DNA of 64,000 nt from the NCBI GenBank assembly GCA_001800975.1, contig MGWK01000035.1, positions 1 through 64,000 of the forward strand, read 5' to 3'. This DNA is from Flavobacteria bacterium RIFCSPLOWO2_12_FULL_35_11 (lineage in GTDB: Bacteria > Bacteroidota > Bacteroidia > Flavobacteriales > Flavobacteriaceae). The position numbers and the translations under genes are program-made. The notes beneath the pieces are model-generated. The model did no database searches. It was not told the DNA's origin and was given only the letters and a program-made list of their open reading frames with translations. Each line of letters begins with the position of its first letter. Position 1 is the stretch's first letter. Of this stretch, positions 26,673-44,609 are shown piece by piece.

Positions 26673-29057
26673 ATGAAACAAAATTTAAAAATGAAACTGA
26701 AAAAAGTAACCATATTGGCAGCTTTTTTAATCACTGCATTTTCTTTTAATGTGAATTCACAAGAACTTTTTACGCTTTCTGGCAAAGTCACCGATGGGCG
26801 CAACCCATTTCCCGACGTAAACATTGTTGTGAAAGAAACCAACAAAGGAACAACCACCAATGTTGACGGTACGTTTTCCCTGTCCTTGAAAAAGGGAACT
26901 TACACGTTATTGGTAAGCGCACTCAGCAATCCGAAGGAAGTAAAGGTTATTTTAACAAAAGATGCTTTTATTTCAATTGACTTGTCCGACCGGTTTATGA
27001 ATTTGGAAGAAGTCCTAGTTTCGGCGGTTCGCGTTAAAGCAACGTCGCCCGTAACGCACAGCAACATCACCAAAAAAGATTTGGAAAAGCGCAATTTGGG
27101 ACAAGATATTCCAATCATGCTAAATTACTTGCCTTCCGTAGTAACAACATCCGATGCCGGCGCAGGTGTAGGATATACAGGAATTAGAGTTCGCGGGAGC
27201 GATGCCACGCGCGTAAACGTAACCATTAACGGAATTCCTTATAACGATGCTGAAAGCCAAGGCACATTTTGGGTAAACATGCCTGATTTCACTTCCTCAA
27301 CCGAAAGCATGCAATTGCAACGCGGCGTTGGGACTTCAACCAATGGATCTGGCGCTTTTGGTGCCAGTTTAAACGTGTTGACCGATGCCGTATCTGAACA
27401 AGGTTATGGAGAAATCAGCAGTTCATTTGGTTCTTACAACACCAAAAAAAATACAGTGAAATTCAGTACCGGCAAAATAAATGACCATATTGAATTTGCG
27501 GGAAGATTTTCTAAAATTGATTCTGATGGCTATATTGACCGCGCTTGGTCGGATTTAAAATCGTACTTTTTACAGGCTTCTTATGTTGATGACAATACCT
27601 TAATCAAAGCGCTGACTTTTGGCGGCCACGAAAAAACATATCAGGCTTGGTTTGGCGTCACCAAAGAGGAAATGGAAACTTTGGGAAGAACTTACAATCC
27701 GTATTCCTACGAAAATGAAATTGACAATTACCAACAAAACCATTTTCAACTGCACTGGAACGAAAAATTAACAGAAAACTGGTCTACCAATGTTGGTTTA
27801 AACTACACCAAAGGCAGCGGTTATTTTGAGCAATTTAAAGCCGGTGAAAATTTTTCGGATTATTTATTGACACCGATTGTTATTGGCGGCGAAATAATTG
27901 ATGAAACAGATTTAATCAGAAGACGCTGGCTGGACAACGATTTTTATGTGTTGAATGCGAATGCCACATACAAAAGTGAGACGGTAGAATTTATCTTCGG
28001 AACTTCTTTCAGCAATTATAAAGGAAAACATTTTGGTGAAATTATTTGGACTGAATTTGCAAGCAATTCTGAAATAAGAGATCATTATTACGATGCCAAT
28101 ACCGAAAAAAATGATGCCAATATTTTTGGAAAATTAACCTATAATTTGAATGATTCCTGGACGTTATTTACAGATTTGCAGGGCAGATTTGTAAAATTTG
28201 ACACAAGAGGATTGACTTCAGACAGAACACCAATTAATGTTGATGAAAACTATTCATTTTTTAATCCGAAAGCCGGATTGACTTTTGAAGCAAATTCCAG
28301 GAACAGTTTCTATTTATCTTATGCAAAAGCAAATAGAGAACCAAATCGCAACGATTTTGAAAACGGCATTTTTACTTCAGAAAAATTAAATGATTTTGAA
28401 TTGGGATGGCGTTTTAAAAATGAAACCGTTAAAATAAACAGCAATGTTTATTATATGTTTTATAAGGATCAGTTGGTTTTAACGGGAGCCATTGACGATA
28501 CAGGATCGCCAATAAGAGCAACCAGCGGAAAAAGTTACCGACTTGGATTGGAAATAGATGCGCAGATTAAATTGACCGATAAATTTTATGTGCAACCAAA
28601 TATAGCCATCAGCAGCAATAAAAATGTTGATTTTTTAACCACTTGGAATGGCGAATTGGTTGATTTAGGAAATACAGATATCGCATTTTCTCCGAATTTA
28701 ATCATTGGAAATGCGTTGGTATTTCAGCCAAATACAAAGATGCAATTATCTTTATTGTCTAAATATGTCGATGAACAATATATGGGGAATATTGACAATG
28801 CAAACTCAAAACTGGATAGCTATTTTGTGAACGATTTAAATATTTCTTATGAAATTAATCCGAAAAAAGTAGTCAAGTCAATAGTGCTAAGTGCCTTGGT
28901 GAACAATATTTTTAATGTTGAATATATTTCAAACGGTTATTATTACACCTATGATGATACCTGGTCTGTTCCAAATCAAACAACTACTTTGGATGGCGCC
29001 GGATATTATCCGCAAGCCACAAGAAACTTTTTGATTGGAGTTACCTTAAAATTTTAA
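26673..29057 (+). CDS. TonB-dependent receptor under TPP riboswitch control (probable thiamine transporter)
   Basis: A 794-residue outer-membrane receptor: signal peptide ending FNVNSQ, a carboxypeptidase-regulatory sandwich (LSGKVTDGRNPFPDVNIVVK, about 33-110), the TonB plug (VRGSDATRVNVTINGIPYND, GVGTSTNGSGAFGASLNV) and a beta-barrel closing with FLIGVTLKF. Control by a TPP riboswitch is strong functional evidence that the imported substrate is thiamine, a phosphate ester or a precursor; riboswitch-controlled TonB receptors with that predicted role are known in Bacteroidota. The start at 26673 or an ATG six codons later (MKLKK) are both possible. A bidirectional terminator follows. Confidence 0.93.
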   Translation: MKQNLKMKLKKVTILAAFLITAFSFNVNSQELFTLSGKVTDGRNPFPDVNIVVKETNKGTTTNVDGTFSLSLKKGTYTLLVSALSNPKEVKVILTKDAFISIDLSDRFMNLEEVLVSAVRVKATSPVTHSNITKKDLEKRNLGQDIPIMLNYLPSVVTTSDAGAGVGYTGIRVRGSDATRVNVTINGIPYNDAESQGTFWVNMPDFTSSTESMQLQRGVGTSTNGSGAFGASLNVLTDAVSEQGYGEISSSFGSYNTKKNTVKFSTGKINDHIEFAGRFSKIDSDGYIDRAWSDLKSYFLQASYVDDNTLIKALTFGGHEKTYQAWFGVTKEEMETLGRTYNPYSYENEIDNYQQNHFQLHWNEKLTENWSTNVGLNYTKGSGYFEQFKAGENFSDYLLTPIVIGGEIIDETDLIRRRWLDNDFYVLNANATYKSETVEFIFGTSFSNYKGKHFGEIIWTEFASNSEIRDHYYDANTEKNDANIFGKLTYNLNDSWTLFTDLQGRFVKFDTRGLTSDRTPINVDENYSFFNPKAGLTFEANSRNSFYLSYAKANREPNRNDFENGIFTSEKLNDFELGWRFKNETVKINSNVYYMFYKDQLVLTGAIDDTGSPIRATSGKSYRLGLEIDAQIKLTDKFYVQPNIAISSNKNVDFLTTWNGELVDLGNTDIAFSPNLIIGNALVFQPNTKMQLSLLSKYVDEQYMGNIDNANSKLDSYFVNDLNISYEINPKKVVKSIVLSALVNNIFNVEYISNGYYYTYDDTWSVPNQTTTLDGAGYYPQATRNFLIGVTLKF

Positions 29058-29061
29058 CAAA

Positions 29062-29089
29062 AAAAACCGAGGTTTTATCCTCGGTTTTT
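29062..29089. terminator. Bidirectional terminator between the TonB receptor and SQR
   Basis: AAAAACCGAGG / CCTCGGTTTTT stem with loop TTTTAT. It serves the convergent TonB receptor (+) and the SQR gene (-), whose stop is 3 bp away. Confidence 0.85.
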
Positions 29090-29091
29090 TA

Positions 29092-30405
29092 TTAAACTTC
29101 TATGCCTTTCATCATTTTATTCCAATACAAATATGGCAACATGTATTTCTTAAGAATCCATAATCTCCAATGTTGTTTTGAAGAATCACCAATCAATAAT
29201 GGAAATTGCTTCAATTTAGGATCTGGCTCAAAATTTTGATTATAATCAAATTCAGCCAACACCATTTTGCCATAACCGGTAACTAAGGGACAAGATGTGT
29301 ATCCATTGTATTCTTTAGAACTAATTGTATTTGTAGCAATCAATTTTAAAATATTTTCAACAACAATTGGGGCTTGTTTTCTAATGGCAGCACCTGTTTT
29401 AGAAGTAGGTAAATTAGATGCGTCGCCCAAACCGAATATATTGGCATATTTTGCATGCTGCATAGTTTTACTGTTTACATCAACCCAACCTGTTTCTGAT
29501 ACCAACACAGAATTTCTAATAAAATCGGGTGCACTTTGAGGTGGAGCCAAATGCATCATGTCAAAATGAATCCCATATAAATCTCCATCTCTTGTTACTT
29601 TCACATCTTTATAATTGTATTGAATTTCTTTATCCAATGTTTTTATGTCGCCATCGGCAATAGTAACACAACCACCTCCGGATAAATCCTTTACAATTTC
29701 ATACCAGGCAATTTTTTTATCAGCATCAACTTTTACCAGTTTATGAAAAAATCGAACATTAATGTCTTTTTCGTCAACCACTTTCATTAAAGTATCAGCT
29801 ATTATTTTAACGCCAAAAATAGAGCCGCTCGGCAAAGCAAACAAAATATTGGTCTTATCCCTTACCCCTATTTTTCTGAAATATTCGTCGGCCAGATACA
29901 TGATTTTTTGGGGAGCGCCACCACATTTAATTGGAGTAGCAGGTTGCGTAAAAAGTGCCGTCCCTCCTTTAAAATTTTTAAGTGTTTCCAAAGTATGCTT
30001 TGGGTTAGTGTAGTTGCTGCAAACCAAGCCTTTATCCATTGCTTCTTGCAAACCCTCCACTAATTCAGGAGCCATTCTCAGTCCCGGTGCAACCACCAAG
30101 TAATCATAGGTATATTCGTTATCATTTTTATCAAAAACTTTATTGTGTTCTGGTTCAAATTTATCTGCAAATTCTTTAATCCAGACTACTCCTTTCGGAA
30201 TTAATGAAGCCATTGGTCTGGCAGTTTTTTCAAAACTATAAGCGTTAGCGCCAACCAATGTCCATGCGGGCTGATAATAATGTGTTTCAGCCGGTTCAAT
30301 TAATCCGATTTGTAAAGAAGAATTTTTTCTTTTTAACATAGAAGAAACCATAATTCCTGCAGTTCCTCCTCCAATTACAAGTACTTGAAAATGTTTTGAA
30401 TTCAT
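29092..30405 (-). CDS. sqr: Sulfide:quinone oxidoreductase, type II-like
   Basis: FAD enzyme that oxidises sulfide to a persulfide and reduces the quinone pool. The 437 residues begin with a Rossmann FAD motif (VIGGGTAGIMVSSML) and the SQR signature ETHYYQPAWTLVGA. Candidate redox cysteines are C161 in IKCGGAPQKIMYL and C372 in YTSCPLVTGYGKMVLAEF, the positions that hold the active pair in human-like type II enzymes, which pass sulfane sulfur to an acceptor rather than making long polysulfides. A C-terminal amphipathic stretch (WRLWILKKYMLPYLYW) would attach it to the membrane. It has its own promoter with a CRP/FNR site. Confidence 0.9.
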   Translation of the reverse strand: MNSKHFQVLVIGGGTAGIMVSSMLKRKNSSLQIGLIEPAETHYYQPAWTLVGANAYSFEKTARPMASLIPKGVVWIKEFADKFEPEHNKVFDKNDNEYTYDYLVVAPGLRMAPELVEGLQEAMDKGLVCSNYTNPKHTLETLKNFKGGTALFTQPATPIKCGGAPQKIMYLADEYFRKIGVRDKTNILFALPSGSIFGVKIIADTLMKVVDEKDINVRFFHKLVKVDADKKIAWYEIVKDLSGGGCVTIADGDIKTLDKEIQYNYKDVKVTRDGDLYGIHFDMMHLAPPQSAPDFIRNSVLVSETGWVDVNSKTMQHAKYANIFGLGDASNLPTSKTGAAIRKQAPIVVENILKLIATNTISSKEYNGYTSCPLVTGYGKMVLAEFDYNQNFEPDPKLKQFPLLIGDSSKQHWRLWILKKYMLPYLYWNKMMKGIEV

Positions 30406-30433
30406 TAATTTTTGATTAATAGGTTTAATCTGA

Positions 30434-30441
30434 GAAATCTA
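30434..30441 (-). promoter_or_regulatory. Putative -7 box for sqr
   Basis: TAGATTTC on the minus strand matches seven of eight positions of TAnnTTTG. Its centre (30437.5) is 32 bp from the centre of the CRP/FNR-like site. Confidence 0.5.
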
Positions 30442-30458
30442 TTAATAAAAAAAGTATT

Positions 30459-30480
30459 GAACGTGACATTAGTCACATTC
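30459..30480 (-). promoter_or_regulatory. CRP/FNR-type operator upstream of sqr
   Basis: GTGA (30463-30466), N6, TCAC (30473-30476), with flanks extending the symmetry to seven of eight positions per arm. Centre 30469.5, about -40 relative to the predicted start, the class II activator position. Confidence 0.75.
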
Positions 30481-30511
30481 AATATTTAATCTTACTTTTT
30501 TAATATTATTT

Positions 30512-30787
30512 TTACTTTTCTTCTGAAGTCATTCTGCCAGTAGCGCAACTCACAAAAGACTTTGCTTTGTGCAATACGGTGTTTGAATCTCCAACCTCAG
30601 GATATCCCAAGCTGGATAATTTTTCTTTAACTTGTTGAATTACCAACTCATCCGTAGCATCTATGCTCACTTCCGAAGTATTTAAATTAATCAAAATTTC
30701 ATTTACTCCTTCAATAGTGACAATTCCTTTTTTTATGGTATTGGCACATCCACCGCATTTTATATTTAATACTTTAATTACTGTCAT
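30512..30787 (-). CDS. HMA-domain (heavy-metal-associated) protein with C-terminal Cys extension
   Basis: A 91-residue protein. Residues 1-68 form a ferredoxin-like HMA fold with the metal-binding loop KCGGCANTIKKG (C11, C14), as in copper chaperones and P-type ATPase N-termini. A short extension carries KAKSFVSCATGRM with a single Cys81, not part of a standard HMA protein. Located at the end of the rhodanese-cytochrome-SQR operon, 41 bp after the 54-residue gene. It may bind Cu(I) or carry sulfane sulfur; the neighbourhood favours a sulfur-linked role, which is inference. Confidence 0.82.
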   Translation of the reverse strand: MTVIKVLNIKCGGCANTIKKGIVTIEGVNEILINLNTSEVSIDATDELVIQQVKEKLSSLGYPEVGDSNTVLHKAKSFVSCATGRMTSEEK

Positions 30788-30828
30788 TTTTCTCTTTTTA
30801 GTTTTTGTAAAATTACATCGATAAAATA

Positions 30829-30993
30829 TTAAGAATGCCCTCCTACTACAATTTTCATCACTTTTAAATTTAATTTAAAAAAATTAAAAAGTTGAATAAT
30901 AAAACAAACCCTCATAAACCTCACTAATTTTGTTGGTTCTGTGGCAAAAGACATATTGCTATACGGCACGGTTTTTTCTTCGCTATTTTCCAT
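30829..30993 (-). CDS. Small 54-residue membrane-associated protein of unknown function
   Basis: Start ATG at 30993, stop TAA at 30829. The protein begins MENSEEKTVPYSNMSF, then a hydrophobic and basic segment (LVRFMRVCFIIQLFNFFKLN, then LKVMKIVVGGHS) of about 30 residues which could lie in or on the inner membrane; the C-terminus is GGHS. It sits 19 bp after the second SQR-type gene and 41 bp before the HMA gene, in line with co-transcription. Codon use is ordinary for the region. I do not recognise a named family; I recall similar tiny proteins ending VVGGHS beside flavobacterial flavoprotein genes. Confidence 0.65.
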   Translation of the reverse strand: MENSEEKTVPYSNMSFATEPTKLVRFMRVCFIIQLFNFFKLNLKVMKIVVGGHS

Positions 30994-31012
30994 GGTTTTA
31001 TTTTTTAATTAA

Positions 31013-32470
31013 CTATTCAGGTATCAGCCACCAAAATGGTTTTGCCTTTGCTTTGTATAAAAACATATAATGCATAAATAATTTCATCCAATGTCCGGCC
31101 AAGCCAACAACACCAACGGTATCTTTAATATTTCTTCCCCATTTTGGATATTTCTCCCAATCGGGAACGATTGGGTTTACAGTCATAACAGCGGCTTGGC
31201 CTTTAAATACGCCATATCCTGCCGAAACTATGCAGGCAGCGCCCATTTTTGCCATAGATGCTTTGTGCGGGTGTTCAATTTTACCAACTTTTATGGAATG
31301 GATGATATTTTCTGCCACTATTTTGCCAATAACTCCTGAAGGCATTCCAGTTCTTGGCGGTGTTGGAAATATTTTTGTTCCGTTTGGACTTTCCATGGGT
31401 TTAGACATCGCGTGTGGCGGCGCAAAAGCAATTCCTGCTGCGTACACATTTTCATATTTTACGCTTTGATAAGTTGATGGCCAATCTTCCGCTCTCCAGT
31501 CCTCATATTTTTTTGGGGCATAATCCGCGTCAACTTTCATCATGCCGTTTGCTACAAATACTTCTGCACTAATATCTTCATTGTTTTTATTGTAAGCTTT
31601 CATTCCGGCGCCTGCAAAACCCGGAATTAACATGGCAAAATCAAATTCTTTGGTATGATATTCGCCGCCTAAATCTTCATAAAAAACTTTGCCTTTTTCA
31701 ACTTTAGTGATTCCGGCTCTTTTTATCCAATTTACGCCGTATTCTTTTAAAATAGATTCCGTAAATATTTTAGTCGGCGTTATGTAGCCATTTCTTTTGA
31801 TATAAGCGCCGCCCATACCAAAATCGCCCAATTCATATTCATTGGTAATCCACCATAATTCAGCCAAATGCATCAATTTTCTTCTTCTAATTTCGAAGGC
31901 AACGTTTAAAATATATTCAAATGCCGCTCCTTGACAAGTAGCCATTGGATGACCCGTTCCAATCAAAAAAGTTTGTTTCTCGCCATTTTCCATCTTCTTA
32001 AAAGACTCTTGAAGTTTTGCCCAAGAATGCGAAGCATGGTCGTAGGTGCAAACTGATTCGGTAAATTTATGCGGACCTAAACCTTCGGTGGCTTCAAAAT
32101 TAAGTTTTGGGCCGGTTGCGTTTATGAGATAATCATAAGTGACTTTTTCTTCATTTCCTTTCTCGTTTTCAGACACATATTTTATGGTGACAAATCCTTT
32201 TTCGTGTTCGGCATCTCCTTCTGGATTTATAGAAACTGCCAATGCTTGTTTATAGATTATACCCAATTTTTTATAAACCGGCGCCAATTCAAACTTGACT
32301 TGTTCTGGTGTCATCAATCCAACGCCAACCCAAATATTTGAAGGAATCCATTGAAAATTACTGTTAGGCGAAACCATAACAACTTCATGTTTGCCTCGAA
32401 GAGATCTGCTTAAATAAGAAACTGCTGTATGTCCAGAAATTCCCGCTCCTAAAACAACAACTTTTGCCAT
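31013..32470 (-). CDS. SQR-family FAD flavoprotein (second sulfide:quinone oxidoreductase-like)
   Basis: A 485-residue pyridine-nucleotide-disulfide oxidoreductase-fold protein. The FAD loop VVLGAGISGHTAVSYL, the SQR-like FQWIPSNIWVGVG, the second Rossmann-like segment and the FAD-tail GIAFAPPHAMSKP are visible. Cys occurs in ESVCTYDHA, MATCQGAAFEYIL and GAACIVSAGYG. The hydrophobic C-terminus (HWMKLFMHYMFLYKAKAKPF) would bind the membrane. It differs strongly from the sqr at 29092 and resembles the other SQR / flavocytochrome c sulfide dehydrogenase branches; the exact type is not settled. It lies 5 bp after the haem lipoprotein gene, which could accept or donate electrons. Confidence 0.82.
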   Translation of the reverse strand: MAKVVVLGAGISGHTAVSYLSRSLRGKHEVVMVSPNSNFQWIPSNIWVGVGLMTPEQVKFELAPVYKKLGIIYKQALAVSINPEGDAEHEKGFVTIKYVSENEKGNEEKVTYDYLINATGPKLNFEATEGLGPHKFTESVCTYDHASHSWAKLQESFKKMENGEKQTFLIGTGHPMATCQGAAFEYILNVAFEIRRRKLMHLAELWWITNEYELGDFGMGGAYIKRNGYITPTKIFTESILKEYGVNWIKRAGITKVEKGKVFYEDLGGEYHTKEFDFAMLIPGFAGAGMKAYNKNNEDISAEVFVANGMMKVDADYAPKKYEDWRAEDWPSTYQSVKYENVYAAGIAFAPPHAMSKPMESPNGTKIFPTPPRTGMPSGVIGKIVAENIIHSIKVGKIEHPHKASMAKMGAACIVSAGYGVFKGQAAVMTVNPIVPDWEKYPKWGRNIKDTVGVVGLAGHWMKLFMHYMFLYKAKAKPFWWLIPE

Positions 32471-32475
32471 ATTGA

Positions 32476-33039
32476 TTATTTTTTAAATTCTATACTCCAA
32501 ATGCCTCTTAAATCACCTTCATTATATCCAATTGCCTTGTCATTGGGATAAAGCGATTTGATAATTGAATCGGTTTTTATTGATACAAATTCATCAACTT
32601 CTCCGTGGCAAGCCAAACAATTTGCTTTTACTGTAATTGGCGCATAATAATGTTTGTTATTATTGCTGTCCACTTCTACAATTGGTGTGATTTCCTTTTT
32701 TCCCGAAATTAATTTATGAAAATTGTTGATAATTTCAAGTTCCCTTTCAGAAGGTTTATTTTCCTGATTTCTTAATTTATCAGAAGTTCTTTTTATGGTT
32801 ACCTTGTATTCTTCAGATAATTGCTGGGTAAGCGGAATGGCTTCAACATTGCAAAACGGTATTGCCTTGGCCGGGCCTCCCAATTTCATTTGCTCCGTTA
32901 ATTTTTCACTTAAGGCTTTAAAAGATGCTTGGGAAATTTCATTTCCTTTGTTGGCATATTCTTGCTTTTCTTTTTCCGAAAGTGAATTGTCACAAGCTGC
33001 CATCGCCAGAAATACCAACAAAATCAACAAATTTTTCAT
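32476..33039 (-). CDS. DUF3365 (Tll0287-like) c-type haem lipoprotein
   Basis: A 187-residue protein with lipoprotein signal (FLAMAAC, Cys about 16) and a single c-haem site CLACHGE near residue 142. The rest matches the Tll0287-like / DUF3365 sensor-type fold (IPFCNVEAIPLTQQLSEEY, LRNQENKPSERE, YYAPITVKANCLACHG, GDLRGIWSIEF). It is probably anchored in a periplasm-facing membrane. Placed 5 bp from both neighbours, between a rhodanese and an SQR-type flavoprotein, it is a candidate electron carrier or redox sensor for sulfide oxidation. Confidence 0.85.
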   Translation of the reverse strand: MKNLLILLVFLAMAACDNSLSEKEKQEYANKGNEISQASFKALSEKLTEQMKLGGPAKAIPFCNVEAIPLTQQLSEEYKVTIKRTSDKLRNQENKPSERELEIINNFHKLISGKKEITPIVEVDSNNNKHYYAPITVKANCLACHGEVDEFVSIKTDSIIKSLYPNDKAIGYNEGDLRGIWSIEFKK

Positions 33040-33044
33040 GAGTG

Positions 33045-33443
33045 CTATTTTACAATATCATTGTTGTTTTTTATCCAATATAAAATTCCGCCCTCCAAAT
33101 CATAAATCTCTTTAAATCCAAAATCTACTGCTTTTTTTGAAGCAGATTCCGTTCTGTTTCCCGATCTGCAATAGATAAAAATCGGCTGATTTTTATCGTA
33201 TTTTGCAATTTGATCTAAAAAATTATCGTCGAAATAATTGATATTTATGGCGCCTTCAATATGTCCCTCACTAAATTCCTGAGGTGTTCTGATATCAATT
33301 ATCGTTTGATTTACCGATTTTTCTTTAAATTCAGTTGGCGTAAGAACCTTAATTGCATCAGATTGTGATTGTGATTTGGTATTACAGCTCATGCTTAAAA
33401 TAGTCACAAGCACCAAAATTGATAGTTTTAATGTAGTTTTCAT
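33045..33443 (-). CDS. Secreted single-domain rhodanese lipoprotein
   Basis: A 132-residue protein with lipoprotein signal (VTILSMSC, Cys about 20) followed by one rhodanese domain: TIIDIRTPQEFSEGHI, GAININYF and the active-site loop IYCRSGNRTES with the catalytic Cys, ending YDLEGGILYW. It can pass sulfane sulfur to thiols or cyanide outside the cytoplasm. First gene of an operon running to the HMA gene (5-bp gaps to the haem lipoprotein and from that to the SQR-type gene), with its own CRP/FNR-type promoter. Confidence 0.9.
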   Translation of the reverse strand: MKTTLKLSILVLVTILSMSCNTKSQSQSDAIKVLTPTEFKEKSVNQTIIDIRTPQEFSEGHIEGAININYFDDNFLDQIAKYDKNQPIFIYCRSGNRTESASKKAVDFGFKEIYDLEGGILYWIKNNNDIVK

Positions 33444-33462
33444 TTGTTTTTCGATTTTTTTA

Positions 33463-33470
33463 TAAAAGTA
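33463..33470 (-). promoter_or_regulatory. Putative -7 box of the rhodanese operon
   Basis: TACTTTTA on the minus strand matches seven of eight positions of TAnnTTTG. Its centre is 33 bp from the centre of the upstream palindrome. Confidence 0.5.
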
Positions 33471-33488
33471 AAGTTACAAATAAATTTT

Positions 33489-33510
33489 AGCAGTAACCAA
33501 TGTTACCGCC
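33489..33510 (-). promoter_or_regulatory. CRP/FNR-type operator upstream of the rhodanese operon
   Basis: GTAA (33493-33496), N6, TTAC (33503-33506), core GTAACCAATGTTAC. Same geometry as the GTGA-N6-TCAC sites, with both inner G/C pairs changed symmetrically to A/T. Centre 33499.5, about -40. Confidence 0.6.
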
Positions 33511-33517
33511 AGATAAT

Positions 33518-33549
33518 AAAGAAGGGGAAGTAAAAACTTCCCCTTCTTT
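33518..33549 (-). terminator. Terminator of the persulfide dioxygenase gene
   Basis: Perfect 14-bp stem AAAGAAGGGGAAGT / ACTTCCCCTTCTTT with loop AAAA, 19 bp after the stop codon at 33568. Confidence 0.85.
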
Positions 33550-33567
33550 TTAAATTAAAAAGAACAT

Positions 33568-34980
33568 TTATAGCAATGTTGTTGGACAAACATAATCGGT
33601 TAGTTTAACCCCAGTATCTTTAATATCTTTAAAACCGCCTCTGACATCTGTAACTTTTTTTACGCCATTTGCCATAAAAATTGAGGCTGCGATTAGGGAG
33701 CGATAGCCGCTGGCGCAATGCAAAACATATTCTTTGTTAGGTTTTATTTCAGCAAAATTTGAATGAATAAAATCTAACGGAAAATTTTCAACACCAACTA
33801 CATGTTCTGAAAGATATTCAGATTCTTTTCGAACATCGAGTGCCACAATATTTCCTTCCTTCAATTTATTGGCAAATTGGGTTGCAGATATGGAGCCAAT
33901 TTTATCAACTTCAAAACCTGCTGCCAACCAAGCGTGAATTCCGCCTCTTAAAAAGCCCAGGGTATTGTCGTAACCCACACGAGAAAAACGTGTAACCACT
34001 TCATGTTCCCTGCCGCCTTCAGCAATAAAAATAATTTTTTGGTTGATGTTAGTAATTAATGAGCCCACCCAAGGTGCAAAGTTACCGTCGACACCAATAT
34101 ACCAGGCACCGGGTACTGTTCCTTCTTCAGCAAATTCTTCTTTTGAACGCGTATCAATCACCAAAATATCCTCACGTTCGCTCATTTCTTTAAATGTAGC
34201 GGCATCGATAGGTGTTGTGCCTCTGTGTAAAATTTCATCAATACTCTTGTTAATTCCCTTATTCATTCTCACGTTATTAGGGAAATATTGTGGTGGTGGT
34301 TTTAAACCTGTAGTCACTTCCTTAATAAACTCTTCCTTGGTCATATCAGCTCTCAAAGCGTAGTTTGTTTTCTTCTGATTTCCCAAAGTATCAAAGGTTT
34401 CGGAGCTCATATTTTTTCCGCAGGCAGAACCAGCTCCATGATTTGGATATACAATAATATCATCGGGCAAAGTCATGATTTTGTTTCGAAGAGAATCAAA
34501 CAAATGACCTGCCAAATCTGCTTCAGTCATATCCGATTTTACAGCCAAATCTGGCCGTCCAACATCACCAATAAATAAACAGTCTCCAGTAAAAGCATAA
34601 GGTTTGTTGCCTTTTTCATCTATTAAAACATAGGATGAAGATTCCATAGTATGGCCAGGCGTATGCAATAATTTAAGGGCAATTTTTCCTATTTTAAATT
34701 CTTCCCCGTCAATTCCTTTATGAATGTCATAATTAGGATTTGCATTTGGGCCAAAAACAATGGTTGCTCCCGTTTTTTTTGCCAAATCAACTTGTCCAGA
34801 GACAAAATCGGCATGAAAATGCGTTAAAAAAACATATTTAATTTTAGCGCCGTCGGCTTTCGCCATTTCAATATACGGCTCAGTTTCTCTTAAAGGATCA
34901 ATTATGGCAGCTTCTCCATTTGACTCAATATAATAAGCCATTTCCGCCAAACAGCTCGTAAATAATTGCTCTACTTTCAT
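33568..34980 (-). CDS. CstB-like persulfide dioxygenase with two rhodanese domains
   Basis: A 470-residue fusion. The N-terminal metallo-beta-lactamase domain (1-245) has the ETHE1/CstB iron site THFHADFVSG (H54, H56, D58), HTPGHTMESS and TGDCLFIGDVGRPDL. The first rhodanese domain (about 255-360) has FIAEGGREHE where the active Cys should be and is therefore a pseudo-rhodanese. The second (about 370-470) has LHCASGYRSLIAAS with the Cys. This order is that of staphylococcal CstB, which oxidises persulfides to sulfite or thiosulfate with O2. It has a private promoter and terminator. It should handle the persulfide made by the two SQR-type enzymes. Confidence 0.92.
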   Translation of the reverse strand: MKVEQLFTSCLAEMAYYIESNGEAAIIDPLRETEPYIEMAKADGAKIKYVFLTHFHADFVSGQVDLAKKTGATIVFGPNANPNYDIHKGIDGEEFKIGKIALKLLHTPGHTMESSSYVLIDEKGNKPYAFTGDCLFIGDVGRPDLAVKSDMTEADLAGHLFDSLRNKIMTLPDDIIVYPNHGAGSACGKNMSSETFDTLGNQKKTNYALRADMTKEEFIKEVTTGLKPPPQYFPNNVRMNKGINKSIDEILHRGTTPIDAATFKEMSEREDILVIDTRSKEEFAEEGTVPGAWYIGVDGNFAPWVGSLITNINQKIIFIAEGGREHEVVTRFSRVGYDNTLGFLRGGIHAWLAAGFEVDKIGSISATQFANKLKEGNIVALDVRKESEYLSEHVVGVENFPLDFIHSNFAEIKPNKEYVLHCASGYRSLIAASIFMANGVKKVTDVRGGFKDIKDTGVKLTDYVCPTTLL

Positions 34981-35022
34981 AATTAACTGATTTATATTTA
35001 ATTAAAATTAATTCTTGTTTCT

Positions 35023-35030
35023 CAAAATTA
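35023..35030 (-). promoter_or_regulatory. Putative -7 box for the persulfide dioxygenase
   Basis: TAATTTTG on the minus strand is a full TAnnTTTG match, 43 bp before the ATG and 33 bp centre-to-centre from the palindrome. Confidence 0.6.
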
Positions 35031-35048
35031 CAAGATGAATATTCTTTC

Positions 35049-35070
35049 ATTTGTAATCTCAATCACATAA
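35049..35070 (-). promoter_or_regulatory. CRP/FNR-type operator upstream of the persulfide dioxygenase
   Basis: GTAA (35053-35056), N6, TCAC (35063-35066): a half-sites-intact but less symmetric member of the same set. Centre 35059.5, about -40. Confidence 0.55.
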
Positions 35071-35090
35071 TAGAAAATATTTTGAAAATA

Positions 35091-36827
35091 TTAACTATTT
35101 GTCTGTTTTATGTAATCAGAAAATTTGATTCCTGTTTCCTTATTTTTTTTCCCTTCTTCAAAAGCATCCACCGCTTCCTGAATACTCAAAAAGCAATTTT
35201 GATAACCTATTTTCTTTATGATGCCGCTTTTTTCCAACACATCTCTCACAGGGCCTTTCATTCCGGTAAAGGCAATATCAATATTCTTGCTTCGATACTT
35301 GGTAATCACATCATTCAACATATATACCCCAGAGCTGTCAATGCTATTGATGCTTTCCCCATCAATAATGATTAATTTCAATTTTTTTCCTTTTCCCGCT
35401 ACGGATGATTCCAATTTATCTTTAAAATATTGAACATTTGCAAAGAATAGCTGTGCATCAAAACGTACAATTAATATTTCTTCTGAAGTAATTAAAAGTC
35501 CTTCAAATCTTTTTATGTTCCTGTAAAAATGGGTGTCTGGAATTCGGCCCAAAATTGCGATATGTGGTTTGGCACTTGTATAAATTAACATTCCCAATGA
35601 CAATATAATTCCTGTAAAAATGCCTTCTTTTATGCCAACCGTGGCCGTTATTAAAAGTGTAATATTTAAAATGACAAGTTCCCTTTTGGAAAATTTCAGC
35701 AACTGTTTTGGAACTGTAAAGTCCAATAGCCCAAAAACGGCAACAATGATTATCGCGGCCAACACAGCCTCGGGCAAATAGTAAAAAACATGAGTAAAAA
35801 ACAATAAAGTCAGCCCAACCACAGACCCGGAAATTATTGTAGCCATAGGCGTTTTAGCGCCCGTTTGATTGTTCACCGCCGTTCTGGAAAAACCTCCTGT
35901 TGCCGGATAAGTTTGAAAAAATGAACCCACTATATTTCCCATTCCCAAAGCAATTAACTCCTGATTTGGAACCACTTTATAATTATTATGTTTTAATTCA
36001 ATGGCTTTTGCAACGGATATTGCCTCTAAAAAAGCAATAAAAGACAATGTTAGCGCAATAGGAAATAAATCTATGAGCGTTTTTTTATCGAATTGAGGAA
36101 CTATAAAATTTGGCAACCCTTTAGGAATATCGCCCACTATTTTAACGCCAATTTGATCCAAATTAAAAATTTGAACGGCAAAGATCCCTAAAACAACAAC
36201 TACCAAAGCAGCCGGAATTTTTACTGAAAATCGCTTAAAAAAAATTAAAATCAATATTGAAATTATGCCAATTGCCAAGGTGATTAAATTGGTGTCTTTT
36301 AAATGCTGAAGTGCGTCAAAAACCAAGCTATGTATTTTATTATTTCGCTGCAAATCAACCCCCAACAAATGTTTTAATTGGCTTAAAGCAATAATTAAAG
36401 CCGCTGCTGAAGTAAATCCGCTAATCACGGGCCTAGATAAAAAATTAACCAAAAACCCCAACTTAAAAATCCCGAACAATACCTGCAAAACACCCATCAT
36501 AAAGGCCAGAAGAATTGCAAATTCAATAAAATGTTCTGTGCCAATTTCCGCCAAAGTTGCAACGCCTGAAGCCACAATAAGTGAATCCATGGCTACAGGT
36601 CCAACCGACAATTGGCGTGAAGTTCCGAAAATAGCATAAATAATTTGTGGAATCATTGCGGTATACAATCCATAAATTGGTGGCAATCCCGCAATCATTG
36701 CGTAAGCAATTCCTTGAGGTATCAGCATAATTCCAACAGCTAATCCGGCACCTAGGTCATTTTTAAAAAATTCCTTTTTATAGTTTGGCAACCAATCTAA
36801 AATTGGAAAAATCTTCTTATAATTCAT
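35091..36827 (-). CDS. SulP-family anion transporter with STAS domain (second of a pair)
   Basis: Membrane transporter of 578 residues: sulfate-transporter core with about 10-14 helices (LAVGIMLIPQGIAYAMIAGL, PPIYGLYTAMIPQIIYAIFG, GSFFQTYPATGGFSRTAVN) and a C-terminal cytoplasmic STAS domain (about 430-560, with IIIDGESINSIDSSGVYML). SulP proteins move sulfate, bicarbonate or related anions, either by H+ or Na+ symport or by exchange. The start overlaps the end of the upstream SulP gene by 11 bp. In a sulfide-oxidation island, sulfate, sulfite or thiosulfate export is the most natural guess. Confidence 0.92.
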   Translation of the reverse strand: MNYKKIFPILDWLPNYKKEFFKNDLGAGLAVGIMLIPQGIAYAMIAGLPPIYGLYTAMIPQIIYAIFGTSRQLSVGPVAMDSLIVASGVATLAEIGTEHFIEFAILLAFMMGVLQVLFGIFKLGFLVNFLSRPVISGFTSAAALIIALSQLKHLLGVDLQRNNKIHSLVFDALQHLKDTNLITLAIGIISILILIFFKRFSVKIPAALVVVVLGIFAVQIFNLDQIGVKIVGDIPKGLPNFIVPQFDKKTLIDLFPIALTLSFIAFLEAISVAKAIELKHNNYKVVPNQELIALGMGNIVGSFFQTYPATGGFSRTAVNNQTGAKTPMATIISGSVVGLTLLFFTHVFYYLPEAVLAAIIIVAVFGLLDFTVPKQLLKFSKRELVILNITLLITATVGIKEGIFTGIILSLGMLIYTSAKPHIAILGRIPDTHFYRNIKRFEGLLITSEEILIVRFDAQLFFANVQYFKDKLESSVAGKGKKLKLIIIDGESINSIDSSGVYMLNDVITKYRSKNIDIAFTGMKGPVRDVLEKSGIIKKIGYQNCFLSIQEAVDAFEEGKKNKETGIKFSDYIKQTNS

Positions 36828-38565
36828 TTTGACTGCTTTGTTTACACTCTTGAAATAATTTTATGTCACAATTTTCGCAATCATCTTTATCTAACTTCGT
36901 ATAAATTGTTGAAATGGCTGTGTGTTTATCTTTAAAAAAATTATCTGCCCCTATAATATCAACAAATCCACCTTTTATTAAAATTTCTTGGCTCACTAAT
37001 TTTAAACCTACAAAATAAATGCCTCCTCCTCTTTCCTGCCATTTTACTACTTCATTAGTCAACCATTCGGCACCAGCCAAATCAATAGAATTAATTCCAT
37101 TGGCAATAATTAGCACATGTTTTTTTTCTTGCTTCGCATACAATTCAGCGAAATAATTAGATAGCGCTTCAATGGCACCAAAATAAATTGAATCATCTAT
37201 CCTTATTATTTTAATTTGAGGACATTCTCTGGCAGTTTCGTCTCTAATTATATTTATAAACTTACCTTCTTTATTGATGCCAACTTCAGCAATATTTGGC
37301 TTTGATGTTTTTTCCAAATAGAAAAATAACGAAATTAATATTCCTGAAAATAAAGCAGTTTCCAACTCTAAAAATAAAGTCCCAAATAAGGTTACGCTAA
37401 ATACAATTAATTCTCGTTTGCTGCTTTTTACAATTTTTTTGATATGATCAAAGTCTATTAAATTATATCCTACCAATAAAATAATGCCACCCATTGCAGG
37501 TTTTGGCAAGAATGAGGCAAACCTTGCAAAAAATAATACAACCAACATTAATCCGACTGCAGAAATTATTGCAGACAAAGGTGTTTTTGCACCTGACTGA
37601 TAATTTAAACCAGAACGCGTAAATGAACCCGAGCTGGCATAAGATGAGAAAAAACTGGAAACAATGTTTGACAAACCTTGACCTATAAACTCTTGATTAT
37701 TGTCTAATTTTTGATGAGAATGTAAGGCCACTGCTCTCGCAATTGAAACTGCTTCAACGAGACCCAATAATGCCAAAGTAAATGCACCGGAAGTCAACAA
37801 ACGCATATTCTCATAATTAAAATCTGGAATGCTAAAAGGCGGCAAATGAGACGGCACATTACCCACCGTTTCTATTCCGTGCATATTGCCTCCAAGTAAC
37901 ATCGCCAAAACACTCCCAACAACCATCGCAATTAACATATAGAGCCTGGCTATCTTTTTTATAAATTTTTTAATTGAAAAAGCGATAAGCAGCGTGCCCA
38001 AAGCAACACCAAATGCATAAAAATTAGTCTGAGTGATGTGATAAATAAGATAGTTTACTATTTCATAAAATGTACTTCCCATAGGCACTTCAATACCAAA
38101 AACATATTTCAATTGTTTAAAACCAATTAAAATTCCGGCTCCTGCTGCAAAACCTATAACCACGGAATTTGAGACAAAATTAACCAGCTTTCCCATTTTA
38201 GCTAAACCCATTACCAATTTTATAACTCCCGCCATAAATGATAATAGGATTGCCAATGAAATAAACGCCTCCATTTCTGTTTCCGGATTTACAAATTTAC
38301 TTATAGCTGCAAAAACAACAATTGAACTAGTTGTAGTGGGACCCGAAATTAAATGATAAGAAGAACCAAATAAGGCGGCAATTATTGGTGTTATCATTGC
38401 GGTATAAAACCCATAAATTGGCGGTAAACCGGCAATCATGGCAAAAGCGACGGCTTGTGGGATCACAATAACTGTTCCCGTAATTCCGGCAATTAAATCA
38501 TCTTTCCAAGTGCTTTTTGCTAAAGGCAACCAAATTAAAAAAGGAAATATTTTTTGCAAACTCAT
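36817..38565 (-). CDS. SulP-family anion transporter with STAS domain and C-terminal Cys cluster
   Basis: The 582-residue first gene of the SulP pair. It has the SulP core (IAGITGTVIVIPQAVAFAMI, PPIYGFYTAMITPIIAALFG, SSYASSGSFTRSGLNYQSGA) and a STAS domain (IIANGINSIDLAGAEWLT). Unlike its partner it ends with a short Cys-rich tail, DDCENCDIKLFQEC, which could bind a metal or respond to reactive sulfur. The two proteins are clearly paralogous but not near-identical; a heteromeric transporter is possible. Its promoter carries the best CRP/FNR palindrome of the window. Confidence 0.92.
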   Translation of the reverse strand: MSLQKIFPFLIWLPLAKSTWKDDLIAGITGTVIVIPQAVAFAMIAGLPPIYGFYTAMITPIIAALFGSSYHLISGPTTTSSIVVFAAISKFVNPETEMEAFISLAILLSFMAGVIKLVMGLAKMGKLVNFVSNSVVIGFAAGAGILIGFKQLKYVFGIEVPMGSTFYEIVNYLIYHITQTNFYAFGVALGTLLIAFSIKKFIKKIARLYMLIAMVVGSVLAMLLGGNMHGIETVGNVPSHLPPFSIPDFNYENMRLLTSGAFTLALLGLVEAVSIARAVALHSHQKLDNNQEFIGQGLSNIVSSFFSSYASSGSFTRSGLNYQSGAKTPLSAIISAVGLMLVVLFFARFASFLPKPAMGGIILLVGYNLIDFDHIKKIVKSSKRELIVFSVTLFGTLFLELETALFSGILISLFFYLEKTSKPNIAEVGINKEGKFINIIRDETARECPQIKIIRIDDSIYFGAIEALSNYFAELYAKQEKKHVLIIANGINSIDLAGAEWLTNEVVKWQERGGGIYFVGLKLVSQEILIKGGFVDIIGADNFFKDKHTAISTIYTKLDKDDCENCDIKLFQECKQSSQNEL

Positions 38566-38596
38566 AGCCCAATAAGTTTCTAATTTTTTACTTCAT

Positions 38597-38604
38597 CAAA
38601 AGTA
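38597..38604 (-). promoter_or_regulatory. Putative -7 box of the SulP pair
   Basis: TACTTTTG on the minus strand is a full TAnnTTTG match, 32 bp centre-to-centre from the operator and 32 bp before the ATG. Confidence 0.65.
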
Positions 38605-38621
38605 CAATGAACAATTTTTAG

Positions 38622-38643
38622 TTTTGTGATTCATGTCACAAAA
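38622..38643 (-). promoter_or_regulatory. CRP/FNR-type operator upstream of the SulP pair
   Basis: Perfect inverted repeat, eight bases per arm (TTTTGTGA ... TCACAAAA) with a 6-bp spacer; core TTGTGA-N6-TCACAA is the textbook CRP/FNR-family geometry. Centre 38632.5, about -40. Confidence 0.85.
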
Positions 38644-38647
38644 ATTA

Positions 38648-39670
38648 TTAAAATAAACCTCCCTGTATGTTTCCTTTAATTCTTCCTAAATGTTTGTAGG
38701 CGAGTTCCGTTACTTCCCTTCCACGCGGCGTACGCATAATAAAACCTTCCTGTATCAAAAATGGTTCGTAAACTTCTTCTATGGTTTCTGTATTTTCCCC
38801 AACTGCGGTTGCAATGGTGCTAATGCCAACAGGTCCTCCTTTAAACTTATCAATTATTGTCATAAGAATTTTATTGTCCATTTCATCTAAGCCATGGGCA
38901 TCAACATTTAATGCGTTTAGCGCATATCTGGCAATTTCAATACTTATTTTACCATTTCCTTTAATTTGGGCAAAATCACGGACTCTTCGTAGCAGTGCAT
39001 TTGCAATTCGCGGTGTGCCCCTGCTTCTTCCGGCAATTTCTATAGCCGATTCCATAGAAATAGGAACTTTTAAAATAGTTGCGCTTCGTTGCACAATGGT
39101 TGTCAACAATTCGGTATTGTAATATTGCAATCGGCTGCTAATTCCAAAACGCGCTCTCATTGGCGCCGTTAACAAACCTGAACGTGTGGTTGCACCAATT
39201 AAGGTAAAAGGTTCTAAATCTATTTGAACCGTGCGGGCATTAGGGCCAGATTCAATCATAATGTCAATCCGATAATCTTCCATGGCCGAATATAAATATT
39301 CTTCCACAACCGGACTTAATCGATGTATTTCATCAATAAACAACACATCGCGTTCGCTTAAATTGGTAAGCAATCCGGCTAAATCTCCGGGTTTGTCCAA
39401 TACCGGACCTGAAGTAATTTTAAGTCCGACATTCAATTCATTTGCTAAAATATGCGCCAAGGTAGTTTTTCCAAGTCCGGGAGGCCCATGAAATAATGTA
39501 TGGTCCAAAGCCTCATTTCGTAAATTGGCAGCGCGCACAAAAACTTTAAGATTGTCTATCACTTGTTCCTGCCCCGTAAAATCATCAAATGATAAGGGAC
39601 GTAATTTTTTTTCTACGTCCGAGTCTTCAGGCGAAGAAAGATTTTTATCAGGATTCAAGTTTTCGTTCAT
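38648..39670 (-). CDS. ruvB: Holliday junction branch-migration ATPase RuvB
   Basis: Hexameric AAA+ motor that, with RuvA, drives branch migration of Holliday junctions before RuvC cleavage. The 340 residues show [20 protein letters not shown], Walker [20 protein letters not shown], Walker [19 protein letters not shown], sensor 1 [20 protein letters not shown] and the C-terminal winged helix ([20 protein letters not shown]). ruvA and ruvC are not adjacent. A -7 box 6 bp before the ATG suggests a leaderless message. The sulfur-island operator lies downstream of its stop. Confidence 0.97.
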
Positions 39671-39675
39671 AAAAA

Positions 39676-39683
39676 CAAAGATA
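39676..39683 (-). promoter_or_regulatory. Putative -7 box for ruvB (leaderless candidate)
   Basis: TATCTTTG on the minus strand is a full TAnnTTTG match 5 bp before the ruvB ATG, so transcription would start at about the A of ATG. Confidence 0.5.
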
Positions 39684-39694
39684 ACGAAGTAGCA

Positions 39695-39730
39695 TTATTA
39701 ATTATTAAAAATTAATAATTAATAATTGAA
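39695..39730. repeat. AT-only repeat downstream of coxA
   Basis: Overlapping ATTAATTATT / AATTAATAAT units with internal dyad symmetry in the 150-bp gap between ruvB and coxA. Could fold into a weak hairpin; no G or C, so terminator function is doubtful. Confidence 0.4.
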
Positions 39731-39820
39731 AAGGTGAAAGCCAACTATTGAAAATTTCAGGTTTTAAAAAAAATTCTCAAATAAAATATTTTATGCTCCT
39801 TAAGAACTTATAATTGAAAA

Positions 39821-41572
39821 TTAAGATTCCTCTTCACCTTCATATAAAGGCGTAATTTGAGAAACATAATCCTCTTCATGTCCGGGTTTGCTATAATCAT
39901 AAGGCCAACGATGAACCGCAGGTATTTCTCCTGGCCAGTTTCCATGAACATGTTCAATTGGCGTTGTCCATTCCAAAGTATTTGCTTTCCAAGGATTTTG
40001 GGTTGCTTTTTTACCTTTGTAAATGCTGATAAAGAAGTTTGTCAAGAAAATTATTTGCGCAGCACCTCCTAATATGGCGAATAATGTGATTACAATATTT
40101 ACATCGGCCACATCATCAAATAATGGAAAAGCGGTGTTGGCATAATATCGGCGCGGCAATCCTGCCAATCCAACAAAATGCATCGGGAAAAATACGCCAT
40201 AGGCTGCCACTACTGTAATCCAGAAATGCCAATAACCCAAAACTTTATTCATCATTCTGCCATACATTTTAGGGAACCAATGATAAACGCCTGCAAACAT
40301 TCCGTAAATAGCAGATACGCCCATCACCAAGTGAAAGTGAGCTACCACAAAGTACGTGTCGTGAACATTAATATCCAATGCGCTGTCTCCAAGCACCAAT
40401 CCTGTTAAGCCTCCCGAAATAAATGTAGAAACAAAACCAATAGAAAAAAGCATTGCCGGATTCATTTGGAGATTTCCTTTCCACATAGTTGTTATCCAGT
40501 TAAAAGCTTTTACTGCGGAAGGAATTGCAATTAATAAAGTGGTAAACGTAAATACGGAACCTAAAAACGGATTCATCCCAGAAACAAACATATGATGGCC
40601 CCAAACAACAGTCGATAAAAATGCAATGGCAAGTATAGAACCTATCATTGCGCGATAACCAAAAATAGGTTTGCGAGAATTACAAGCAATGACTTCAGAA
40701 ACAATACCCATTGCAGGTAATATTACAATGTAAACTTCGGGATGTCCCAAGAACCAAAATAAATGTTCAAACAATACCGGAGAGCCTCCCTGATAATGTA
40801 AAACTTCCCCTTGGATAAATATATCTGATAAATAAAATGACGTACCAAAACTTCTGTCGAAAATTAACAACAAGGCTGCTGAAAGCAATACCGGAAATGA
40901 AACCACCCCAATAATTGCTGTCACAAAAAACGCCCAAATTGTCAATGGCAATCTGGTCATTTTCATCCCTATAGTTCTTAAATTAAGCACCGTAACAATG
41001 TAGTTTAATGCGCCCAATAAAGAAGAAGCAATAAATATCGCCATAGAAATTAACCAAAGTGTCATTCCAAGTCCAGAACCCGGAATGGCTTGCGGCAAAG
41101 CACTTAACGGCGGATAGATTGTCCAGCCTGCAGATGCAGGTCCTGCTTCAACAAAAAGCGAAGAAACCATAATCACACTCGATAAGAAGAACAGCCAATA
41201 CGAAACCATATTTAAAAATCCGGAGGCCATATCACGTGCTCCAATTTGCAAAGGAATCAATAAGTTGCTAAATGTTCCGCTTAAACCAGCTGTTAACACG
41301 AAGAATACCATAATGGTACCGTGAATGGTTACAATTGCCAAGTAAATATCGGGAGACATCACGCCTCCATCCTGATGGCGTCCCAAAAATGCTTCAACAA
41401 GACTAAAAGAAGTATCGGGCCAAGCAATTTGTAACCTGAACAACATTGACATAAATACCCCAATAACGCCCATAAAAATACCAGTAATTAAATACTGTTT
41501 TGAAATCATTTTATGGTCAGTACTAAAAACGTATTTTGTAATAAATGTTTCTTTGTGATGATGATCTGACAT
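39821..41572 (-). CDS. coxA: Cytochrome c oxidase subunit I (aa3 type)
   Basis: Catalytic subunit of the haem-copper terminal oxidase, reducing O2 to water and pumping protons. The 583 residues hold 12 or more helices, the low-spin and high-spin haem histidines (IHGTIMVFFVLT, VHDTYFVVAHFHLVMG), the CuB/Tyr motif GHPEVYIVILPAMGIVSEVI, and WGHHMFVSGMNPFLG. YVSTIEHV-like detail is absent as expected. Cotranscribed after coxB (25 bp gap). Together with the act genes it should form the ACIII-aa3 supercomplex known from Flavobacterium johnsoniae. Confidence 0.97.
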   Translation of the reverse strand: MSDHHHKETFITKYVFSTDHKMISKQYLITGIFMGVIGVFMSMLFRLQIAWPDTSFSLVEAFLGRHQDGGVMSPDIYLAIVTIHGTIMVFFVLTAGLSGTFSNLLIPLQIGARDMASGFLNMVSYWLFFLSSVIMVSSLFVEAGPASAGWTIYPPLSALPQAIPGSGLGMTLWLISMAIFIASSLLGALNYIVTVLNLRTIGMKMTRLPLTIWAFFVTAIIGVVSFPVLLSAALLLIFDRSFGTSFYLSDIFIQGEVLHYQGGSPVLFEHLFWFLGHPEVYIVILPAMGIVSEVIACNSRKPIFGYRAMIGSILAIAFLSTVVWGHHMFVSGMNPFLGSVFTFTTLLIAIPSAVKAFNWITTMWKGNLQMNPAMLFSIGFVSTFISGGLTGLVLGDSALDINVHDTYFVVAHFHLVMGVSAIYGMFAGVYHWFPKMYGRMMNKVLGYWHFWITVVAAYGVFFPMHFVGLAGLPRRYYANTAFPLFDDVADVNIVITLFAILGGAAQIIFLTNFFISIYKGKKATQNPWKANTLEWTTPIEHVHGNWPGEIPAVHRWPYDYSKPGHEEDYVSQITPLYEGEEES

Positions 41573-41597
41573 ATTATATTTTTTAGTAGTCTAGTAA

Positions 41598-42614: not shown

Positions 42615-42643
42615 ATTTTTTTAGATAGTTGTTATAGTGGTGC

Positions 42644-42651
42644 CAAATATA
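42644..42651 (-). promoter_or_regulatory. Putative -7 box for coxBA
   Basis: TATATTTG on the minus strand, a full TAnnTTTG match, 30 bp before the coxB ATG. It abuts the T-tract of the actF terminator. Confidence 0.5.
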
Positions 42652-44604: not shown

Positions 44605-44609
44605 TTTAA

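Follow-up and report, generated by a model that had tools for sequence, protein, structure and literature searches.

Marine Flavobacteriaceae are frequent at oxygen-sulfide interfaces. In Escherichia coli, CRP and FNR activate class II promoters from a site centered at −41.5. The cst operon of Staphylococcus aureus (regulator CstR) and the BigR and FisR regulons of Acinetobacter baumannii have sulfide:quinone oxidoreductase (SQR), persulfide dioxygenase, TauE, and YeeE/YedE as targets, but their regulators come from families other than CRP/FNR. Here, we report on a sulfur gene island with similar targets in Flavobacteria bacterium RIFCSPLOWO2_12_FULL_35_11, in which four promoters (of the SQR gene sqr, a rhodanese operon, a CstB-like gene, and a pair of SulP transporter genes) carry a CRP/FNR-type palindromic operator at a fixed distance from a TAnnTTTG-like −7 box. 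The stretch analyzed (the window, 64,000 nucleotides; contig MGWK01000035.1, positions 1 to 64,000) is contig C35 of a 3.56-Mb Lutibacter genome, labeled G000.

In A. baumannii, BigR is a persulfide-sensing repressor, FisR is a sigma-54 activator, and Crp is among the persulfidated proteins, its effect being left open in the text consulted (PMC7315123). The available text of a review of reactive-sulfur sensors (CstR, SqrR, BigR, PigS, FisR, OxyR, LasR, and OhrR) includes no CRP/FNR sensor (PMC9774590). TsuA/YeeE thiosulfate transporters and SoxT, with sulfur-responsive repressors, place YeeE-type genes in a control unit with sulfur enzymes, but here such genes adjoin CRP/FNR genes. For HcpR2 (E181P), the predicted operator is GTAACnnnnGTTAC, and residues 180 and 181 are tied to operator bases (Rodionov 2005, PMC1274295). 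The system described here has that operator consensus in common with HcpR2, along with a non-Glu residue at 181 and a residue-base logic that agrees, but the residue at 181 is Pro in HcpR2, which acts on hcp, whereas this genome is hcp-less and the targets are sulfur genes. With the class II promoters of E. coli CRP and FNR it shares the protein family, the palindrome shape, and probably the position, since the predicted start site would put the operator center some 41 bp downstream of it; unlike them, it has a TAnnTTTG −7 box, no FNR-type N-terminal cysteines, Val at 181 in the main regulator type, and sulfur targets.

Searched by titles and abstract openings, the literature gave no CRP/FNR sulfide regulon of Bacteroidota, nor is one mentioned in the available parts of a CRP/FNR meta-regulon study with a Flavobacteriales metagenome-assembled genome (MAG; PMC8510549), of work on Porphyromonas gingivalis Crp (PMC12040651), or of work on Black Sea Lutibacter (PMC11129491). 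An earlier reading made from the letters of the window alone (the sequence-only reading) had inferred that the design is novel, knowing of no such sulfide regulon in flavobacteria. For a phylum without a described sulfide regulator in the literature searched, the analysis supplies an operator with its promoter geometry, a set of candidate regulators, and a list of targets.

Promoter geometry

The four GTRA-N6-TYAC palindromes and their boxes, two perfect and two matching TAnnTTTG at seven of eight positions, were all found where the sequence-only reading had put them:

30463 to 30476, minus strand: sqr operator, GTGA class, coding-strand sequence GTGACTAATGTCAC (GTGA/TCAC on both sides)
30434 to 30441, minus strand: sqr −7 box, TAGATTTC, match 7/8
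33493 to 33506, minus strand: rhodanese-operon operator, GTAA class, GTAACATTGGTTAC (GTAA/TTAC)
33463 to 33470, minus strand: rhodanese-operon −7 box, TACTTTTA, match 7/8
35053 to 35066, minus strand: operator of the CstB-like gene, mixed class, GTGATTGAGATTAC
35023 to 35030, minus strand: −7 box of the CstB-like gene, TAATTTTG, perfect match
38626 to 38639, minus strand: SulP-pair operator, GTGA class, GTGACATGAATCAC (GTGA/TCAC on both sides)
38597 to 38604, minus strand: SulP-pair −7 box, TACTTTTG, perfect match

Operator and box centers are 32, 33, 33, and 32 bp apart (sqr, rhodanese, CstB-like, SulP), and the gap from operator edge to box is 21 or 22 bp at all four promoters. Contrary to the sequence-only reading, the operator itself is not the same throughout: sites 30463 and 38626 are GTGA/TCAC, 33493 is GTAA/TTAC, and 35053 is mixed.

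The window contains 14 such palindromes against 3.08 expected (0/100 shuffles reached 14), and a palindrome with TAnnTTT at gap 21/22 occurs four times against a mean of 0.06 in dinucleotide shuffles (0/300 reached 4). At other gaps from 5 to 44, there were one or two matches at nine values and zero at the rest. Shuffling the four intergenic regions 3,000 times each gave zero matches of operator with box, which bears out the view that the spacing is unlikely by chance. Genome-wide, the operator was searched alone, the box was then read in the flanks, and gaps 5 to 44 were compared for 85 distinct palindromes (61 of 63 GTRAY-N4-RTYAC located, plus weaker ones). Gaps 21 and 22 each had five occurrences of TAnnTTTG, and the other 38 gaps had two in all. 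Two of these ten sites are the perfect boxes of the window and eight are new; the looser TAnnTTT gave 12 sites at gap 21/22, four in the window and eight elsewhere. The sites elsewhere in this genome, by locus label, precede or lie in the following:

L148: yeeE pair
L149: iron-sulfur (FeS)/NrfD-type gene
L110: rhodanese
L018: OsmC-like gene
L017: ABM-domain gene
L113: 127-amino-acid protein preceding a TonB-receptor-like gene (by eye)
L144: outer-membrane efflux gene
L152: site inside an opposite-strand open reading frame (ORF)

Upstream DNA was available for 79 loci of CstB-like relatives, two with less than 200 bp (L090 was dropped, its match starting at a contig end). A palindrome precedes the CstB-like gene in 67/79, with TAnnTTT at gap 21/22 in 55/67, so the expected conservation in related genomes was found. 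Over the 80 relative loci, gap 21 had 54 occurrences of TAnnTTTG and gap 22 had 64, compared with 13 for the other 38 gaps combined. Operator and box stand upstream of CstB (55/83 ORFs), rhodanese (18/58), first SulP (15/42), second SulP (12/59), sqr (10/25), second SQR (5/15), and yeeE-a (8/13) genes, compared with 10/540 other ORFs of at least 150 amino acids, 0/17 ruvB genes, and 0/29 orthologs of a heavy-metal-associated (HMA) domain gene of the island. Judging by the unassigned targets, those ten would be seven 538-amino-acid FeS/NrfD-type proteins, two TauE-like proteins, and one CxxCH protein, all assigned by eye. Among TAnnTTT sites in these loci, 24/156 were not followed by an assigned sulfur gene; 19 of them preceded an unassigned ORF and 5 preceded none.

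Chance, or retention of sequence from recent ancestry, would explain these counts with a probability that we put next to nil. Relatives do have ancestry in common, TAnnTTT is frequent in AT-rich spacers, and the palindrome alone is in no excess genome-wide (230, reversed control 449; GTRAY-N4-RTYAC, 63, control 94; GTRAC-N4-GTYAC, 13, control 19), but the shuffles, gap controls, and unrelated genes all oppose chance, operator with box is not equally frequent elsewhere, and operator letters, spacer letters, and class differ between species while the geometry is constant. The compared species are related, and locus counts are therefore not independent events. The signal is the fixed operator-box distance, not the palindrome by itself.

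Because TAnnTTTG lies at −12 to −5 in the start-site map of Flavobacterium psychrophilum (PMC9723704), the operator, which by that numbering spans −48/−47 to −35/−34 in aligned promoters, would be centered at −40.5 or −41.5. This would fit the class II distance that the sequence-only reading had proposed. No conserved TTTG was present near −33 in the aligned relative promoters. A repressor at −41 that blocks RNA polymerase until sulfide relieves it, as with CstR, SqrR, and BigR, is improbable; SqrR and BigR, both described sulfide regulators, are repressors (PMC9774590, PMC7315123), but two adjacent gap values only and the missing TTTG suit a class II activator, and a roadblock needs neither.

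Candidate regulators and operator classes

The regulator had been placed outside the window, and an HTH_Crp_2 search found five CRP/FNR-type genes in the genome, none on the window contig. Three are candidates, and the remaining two have different recognition helices:

C88:52032-52661: CRP003, recognition helix TSRVVVSR, before the yeeE pair and ending just ahead of the yeeE operator
C83:200-820: CRP004, TSRVVVSR, last gene at a contig end, behind a molybdoenzyme-rhodanese-yeeE cluster
C88:53801-54430: CRP005, SREAISR, a Lutibacter paralog following the yeeE pair

The regulators of the four promoters are likely CRP/FNR proteins encoded beside sulfur genes. CRP003 belongs to the CRP/FNR superfamily (PF00027 and PF13545 above cut-off), and an AlphaFold model of its relative at L061 has the CRP fold (predicted local distance difference test, 82; loop 83-88 poorly modeled), with CRP/FNR structures as best matches (template modeling score about 0.5-0.6). 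Its first cysteine is at position 77, so the N-terminal [4Fe-4S] cysteines of FNR were not found. In CRP, Glu72 and Arg82 contact cAMP. Neither appears conserved in the alignment, where Cys77 with C83/C84 stands instead, in a loose loop alignment with a poor loop model and an approximate E. coli CRP sequence. Among 33 aligned proteins (own CRP003 twice), Val occupies position 181 in 32, and Cys77, Cys83, and Cys84 occur in 32, 21, and 22. CRP005 relatives have Glu in 30/31 aligned (own twice; one unread by pattern), and among them no column around Cys77 reaches 30% cysteine. Control of sulfur genes by an HcpR2-like nitrosative-stress regulator reading GTAACnnnnGTTAC is very improbable. The palindrome does equal the operator predicted in Bacteroides and elsewhere for HcpR2 (PMC1274295), but the neighbors and targets are largely sulfur genes and the residue at 181 is Val rather than Pro. 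No Prismane (hcp) gene was found in the genome, and the hcp reading was set aside on that ground.

A CRP003 relative occurs in 164/199 family genomes and a CstB-like gene in 181/199; by eye, their presence is weakly associated (154/181 with CstB, 10/18 without). Among matches listed for both, the CRP gene lies at most 10 kb from the CstB-like gene in 82/111 genomes, always on its 5′ side and in 80 on the same strand. In the genome studied here, CRP003 and CRP004 are on different contigs from the CstB-like gene. Operator and box begin at the CRP stop codon, or no more than 75 bp beyond it, in 15/30 CRP loci. Plasmid records with CRP003 relatives number 66, all below 60% identity. CRP005 relatives were found at 1e-45 in 2/199 family genomes, both Lutibacter, and as strong matches (E < 1e-75) in 31/38 genus genomes, with a fragment in one more.

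Operators were classed according to base three in both half-sites (AA, GG, or mixed), and palindromes near CRP genes were counted with or without a box. Near Val-type genes (51 loci), there were 41 AA, 7 mixed, and 1 GG palindromes, and near Glu-type genes (7 loci) 6 GG, 1 mixed, and 1 AA (GG palindromes, Fisher 5e-6); GC-matched Val loci gave 10 AA, 2 mixed, and 0 GG. With the box required, Val loci keep 37 sites (half-sites with A, 63; with G, 11; own genome twice) and 1/7 Glu loci keeps a site (GG). A weaker test on CstB-relative loci gave GG at 7/14 sites near Glu-type and 0/14 near Val-type genes (p 0.006). In Lutibacter-like loci, SulP operators were 14 GG, 1 AA, and 1 none (n = 16); sqr, 8 GG and 1 none (n = 9); rhodanese, 13 AA and 3 none (n = 16); and CstB, 9 AA, 4 mixed, 1 GG, and 4 none (18 loci). 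Outside that group, sqr gave 9 AA, 4 GG, 1 mixed, and 2 none. Sixteen of the 18 Lutibacter-like loci are in CRP005-bearing genomes, where SulP sites are GG in 14/14. In genomes without CRP005, the SulP operator is AA before the first SulP gene (L033) and AA before the other SulP gene (L078; labeled Lutibacter, its match not in the genus list). The promoter of yeeE-crp005 in Lutibacter was 6 GG (own genome included), 12 AA, and 1 AG; 30 loci were read, and 19 had a site. In G498, G508, and G509, three Lutibacter genomes that lack a strong CRP005 match, no operator preceded the yeeE pair in the stretches read.

That one regulator reads both variants, with GTGA and GTAA tuning promoter strength by affinity and CRP005 doing something else, is unlikely. 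Mixed operators do exist (window 35053; 6 GA and 1 AG among the 16 CstB sites that 17 Lutibacter-like loci contain), as do the GG and seven mixed palindromes at Val-type loci and the AA promoters of yeeE-crp005 in 12/19 Lutibacter loci. Against this, class follows the gene among promoters with a site (SulP 14/15 GG, rhodanese 13/13 AA), it follows the nearby Glu or Val residue, and the sole SulP promoter of a genus genome without CRP005 is AA. The sequence-only reading of one CRP/FNR-type regulon thus stands for the operators, their shared geometry, and the sulfur genes; its single regulon is not supported in that form, because the operator classes follow gene identity across Lutibacter and two kinds of candidate regulator in the genome differ at the specificity residue.

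A proposed two-channel model

We favor, at a probability of roughly 0.7, a model in which Val regulators act on GTAA and a Glu regulator on GTGA, both by class II activation. The four promoters would be activator-dependent sigma-A promoters of Bacteroidota, where a dimeric CRP/FNR protein binds the palindrome at −40.5/−41.5 in place of a −33 element and, judging from the geometry, may recruit RNA polymerase as class II CRP does. The regulators would form one CRP/FNR subfamily, CRP003 and CRP004 (Val) and CRP005 (Glu), with the residue at the CRP-Glu181 position setting the third half-site base. Val would read GTAA at the rhodanese operon and most CstB genes, and Glu would read GTGA at sqr, SulP, and, in this clade, also yeeE-crp005; Lutibacter would therefore run two operator channels in parallel, alike in promoter geometry. 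The signal of the Val type would probably be reduced sulfur (persulfide or polysulfide), which may work through the conserved Cys77 and a neighboring cysteine in the part of the protein where CRP binds cAMP.

Several points weigh against this model. Binding, activation, signal, and start sites are what we infer throughout. Besides the lack of excess of the palindrome alone, 12/79 CstB-like relatives have no palindrome in their upstream DNA, 12/67 with a palindrome have no box at gap 21/22, and the L152 site lies inside an opposite-strand ORF and may be chance. Val-type crp genes seldom have their own upstream operator (0/16; 2/30 loci). CRP005 is without Cys77, so a signal common to both regulator kinds is doubtful. 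The residue-base correlation draws on 8 Glu-side palindromes from 7 loci of related species, and because a box at gap 21/22 is kept in a single one of those loci, evidence for the promoter geometry is scant in the Glu type. Near Glu-type genes in CstB-relative loci (sites within 4 kb), half of the sites are GG and five are AA, including three CstB sites; Cyclobacteriaceae loci with Glu-type genes (L093 and L097) have mixed CstB operators. The CRP005-free genomes compared are two, both MAGs, and the AA majority at yeeE-crp005 means that the promoter of the Glu paralog often belongs to the other class.

More tentatively, Bacteroidota may own a CRP/FNR sulfane-sulfur sensor with a dithiol in the old cyclic-nucleotide pocket, of which a Lutibacter duplicate might have gained Glu, lost the sensing cysteine, and taken half of the regulon as operators went from GTAA to GTGA with the geometry kept; we regard this history as possible, though doubtful. 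If true, a single residue, with a single base in each half-site, would have rewired a regulon in nature. How duplicated regulators come to separate their targets could be studied on the natural Val/Glu split.

Island genes and further observations

The genes had been described as a functional sulfur set, and Pfam and solved relatives support the SQR, rhodanese, CstB-like, and SulP identities:

29092 to 30405, minus strand: sqr, sulfide:quinone oxidoreductase (Pfam PF07992; resembles mitochondrial SQR structures)
30512 to 30787, minus strand: HMA domain protein (Pfam PF00403), without its own operator
31013 to 32470, minus strand: second SQR-type flavoprotein, third operon gene (residues 2-288 match bacterial SQR structures at E about 2e-32)
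32476 to 33039, minus strand: Tll0287-like protein, second operon gene (Pfam PF11845, E 8e-23; heme-binding CxxCH is CLACH by eye)
33045 to 33443, minus strand: single-domain rhodanese, first gene of the putative operon (Pfam PF00581, E 1e-21)
33568 to 34980, minus strand: CstB-like protein, a metallo-beta-lactamase fold of persulfide-dioxygenase type with two rhodanese domains (Pfam, solved relatives)
35091 to 36827, minus strand: SulP-family anion transporter, second of the pair (Pfam PF00916, PF01740), overlapping the first SulP gene
36817 to 38565, minus strand: SulP-family anion transporter, first of the pair (Pfam PF00916, PF01740)

The best solved relatives of the sqr product are 6mp5, 6mo6, and 6oi5 (E about 5e-109). 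The closely spaced rhodanese, Tll0287-like, and second SQR-type genes likely form one operon, and the overlapping SulP genes have a single upstream operator in common. The CstB-like protein, 97% identical to a Lutibacter MAG protein (closest named loci mostly Lutibacter), resembles the structures 3tp9 and 3r2u along most of the chain and also ETHE1 4chl. It fuses the metallo-beta-lactamase domain to rhodanese, and 3r2u, which we take to be S. aureus CstB, covers residues 4-454 of 470, so that it can be called CstB-like, a putative persulfide dioxygenase-rhodanese. No Rfam family reached its gathering score in window 29000-40000.

TauE/SafE-like exporter genes (by eye) at L083 2675 and L084 4945 carry the same operator and box, which recalls TauE of known sulfide operons. 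The CRP004 cluster (L153; G000:C83:1-11862) comprises CRP004, a porin, four rhodanese-type and two YeeE-type proteins, FeS and NrfD-type proteins, and a molybdoenzyme that is PhsA-like by its best NCBIfam model, though with a score under the cut-off; a Sulf_transp protein and a rhodanese protein were assigned by Pfam, and further FeS, NrfD-, YeeE-, and rhodanese-type members were assigned by eye. GTAAC palindromes lie there at 4285 and 10867, with no box at gap 21/22. In five loci of other Flavobacteriaceae (L058, L069, L070, L071, and L077), a distinct Glu-type CRP (SREVISR) keeps Cys77 and has GTGAC operators nearby, some of which precede a short DUF2892-like gene (by eye).

At window positions 1370-1383, GTGACATTTGTCAC contains a tighter palindrome, TGACATTTGTCA (one in the window against 0.07 expected), 169 bp ahead of an lpdA-like gene (by eye) at 1552, with no −7 box at gap 21/22. 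Similar TGACA-N2-TGTCA palindromes lie near the L153 operators at 4285 and 10867, and together they are perhaps a second CRP/FNR-type site. Beyond ruvB, beside the sulfur island, cytochrome oxidase and alternative-complex-III-like genes (by eye) occupy window positions 39821-46518.

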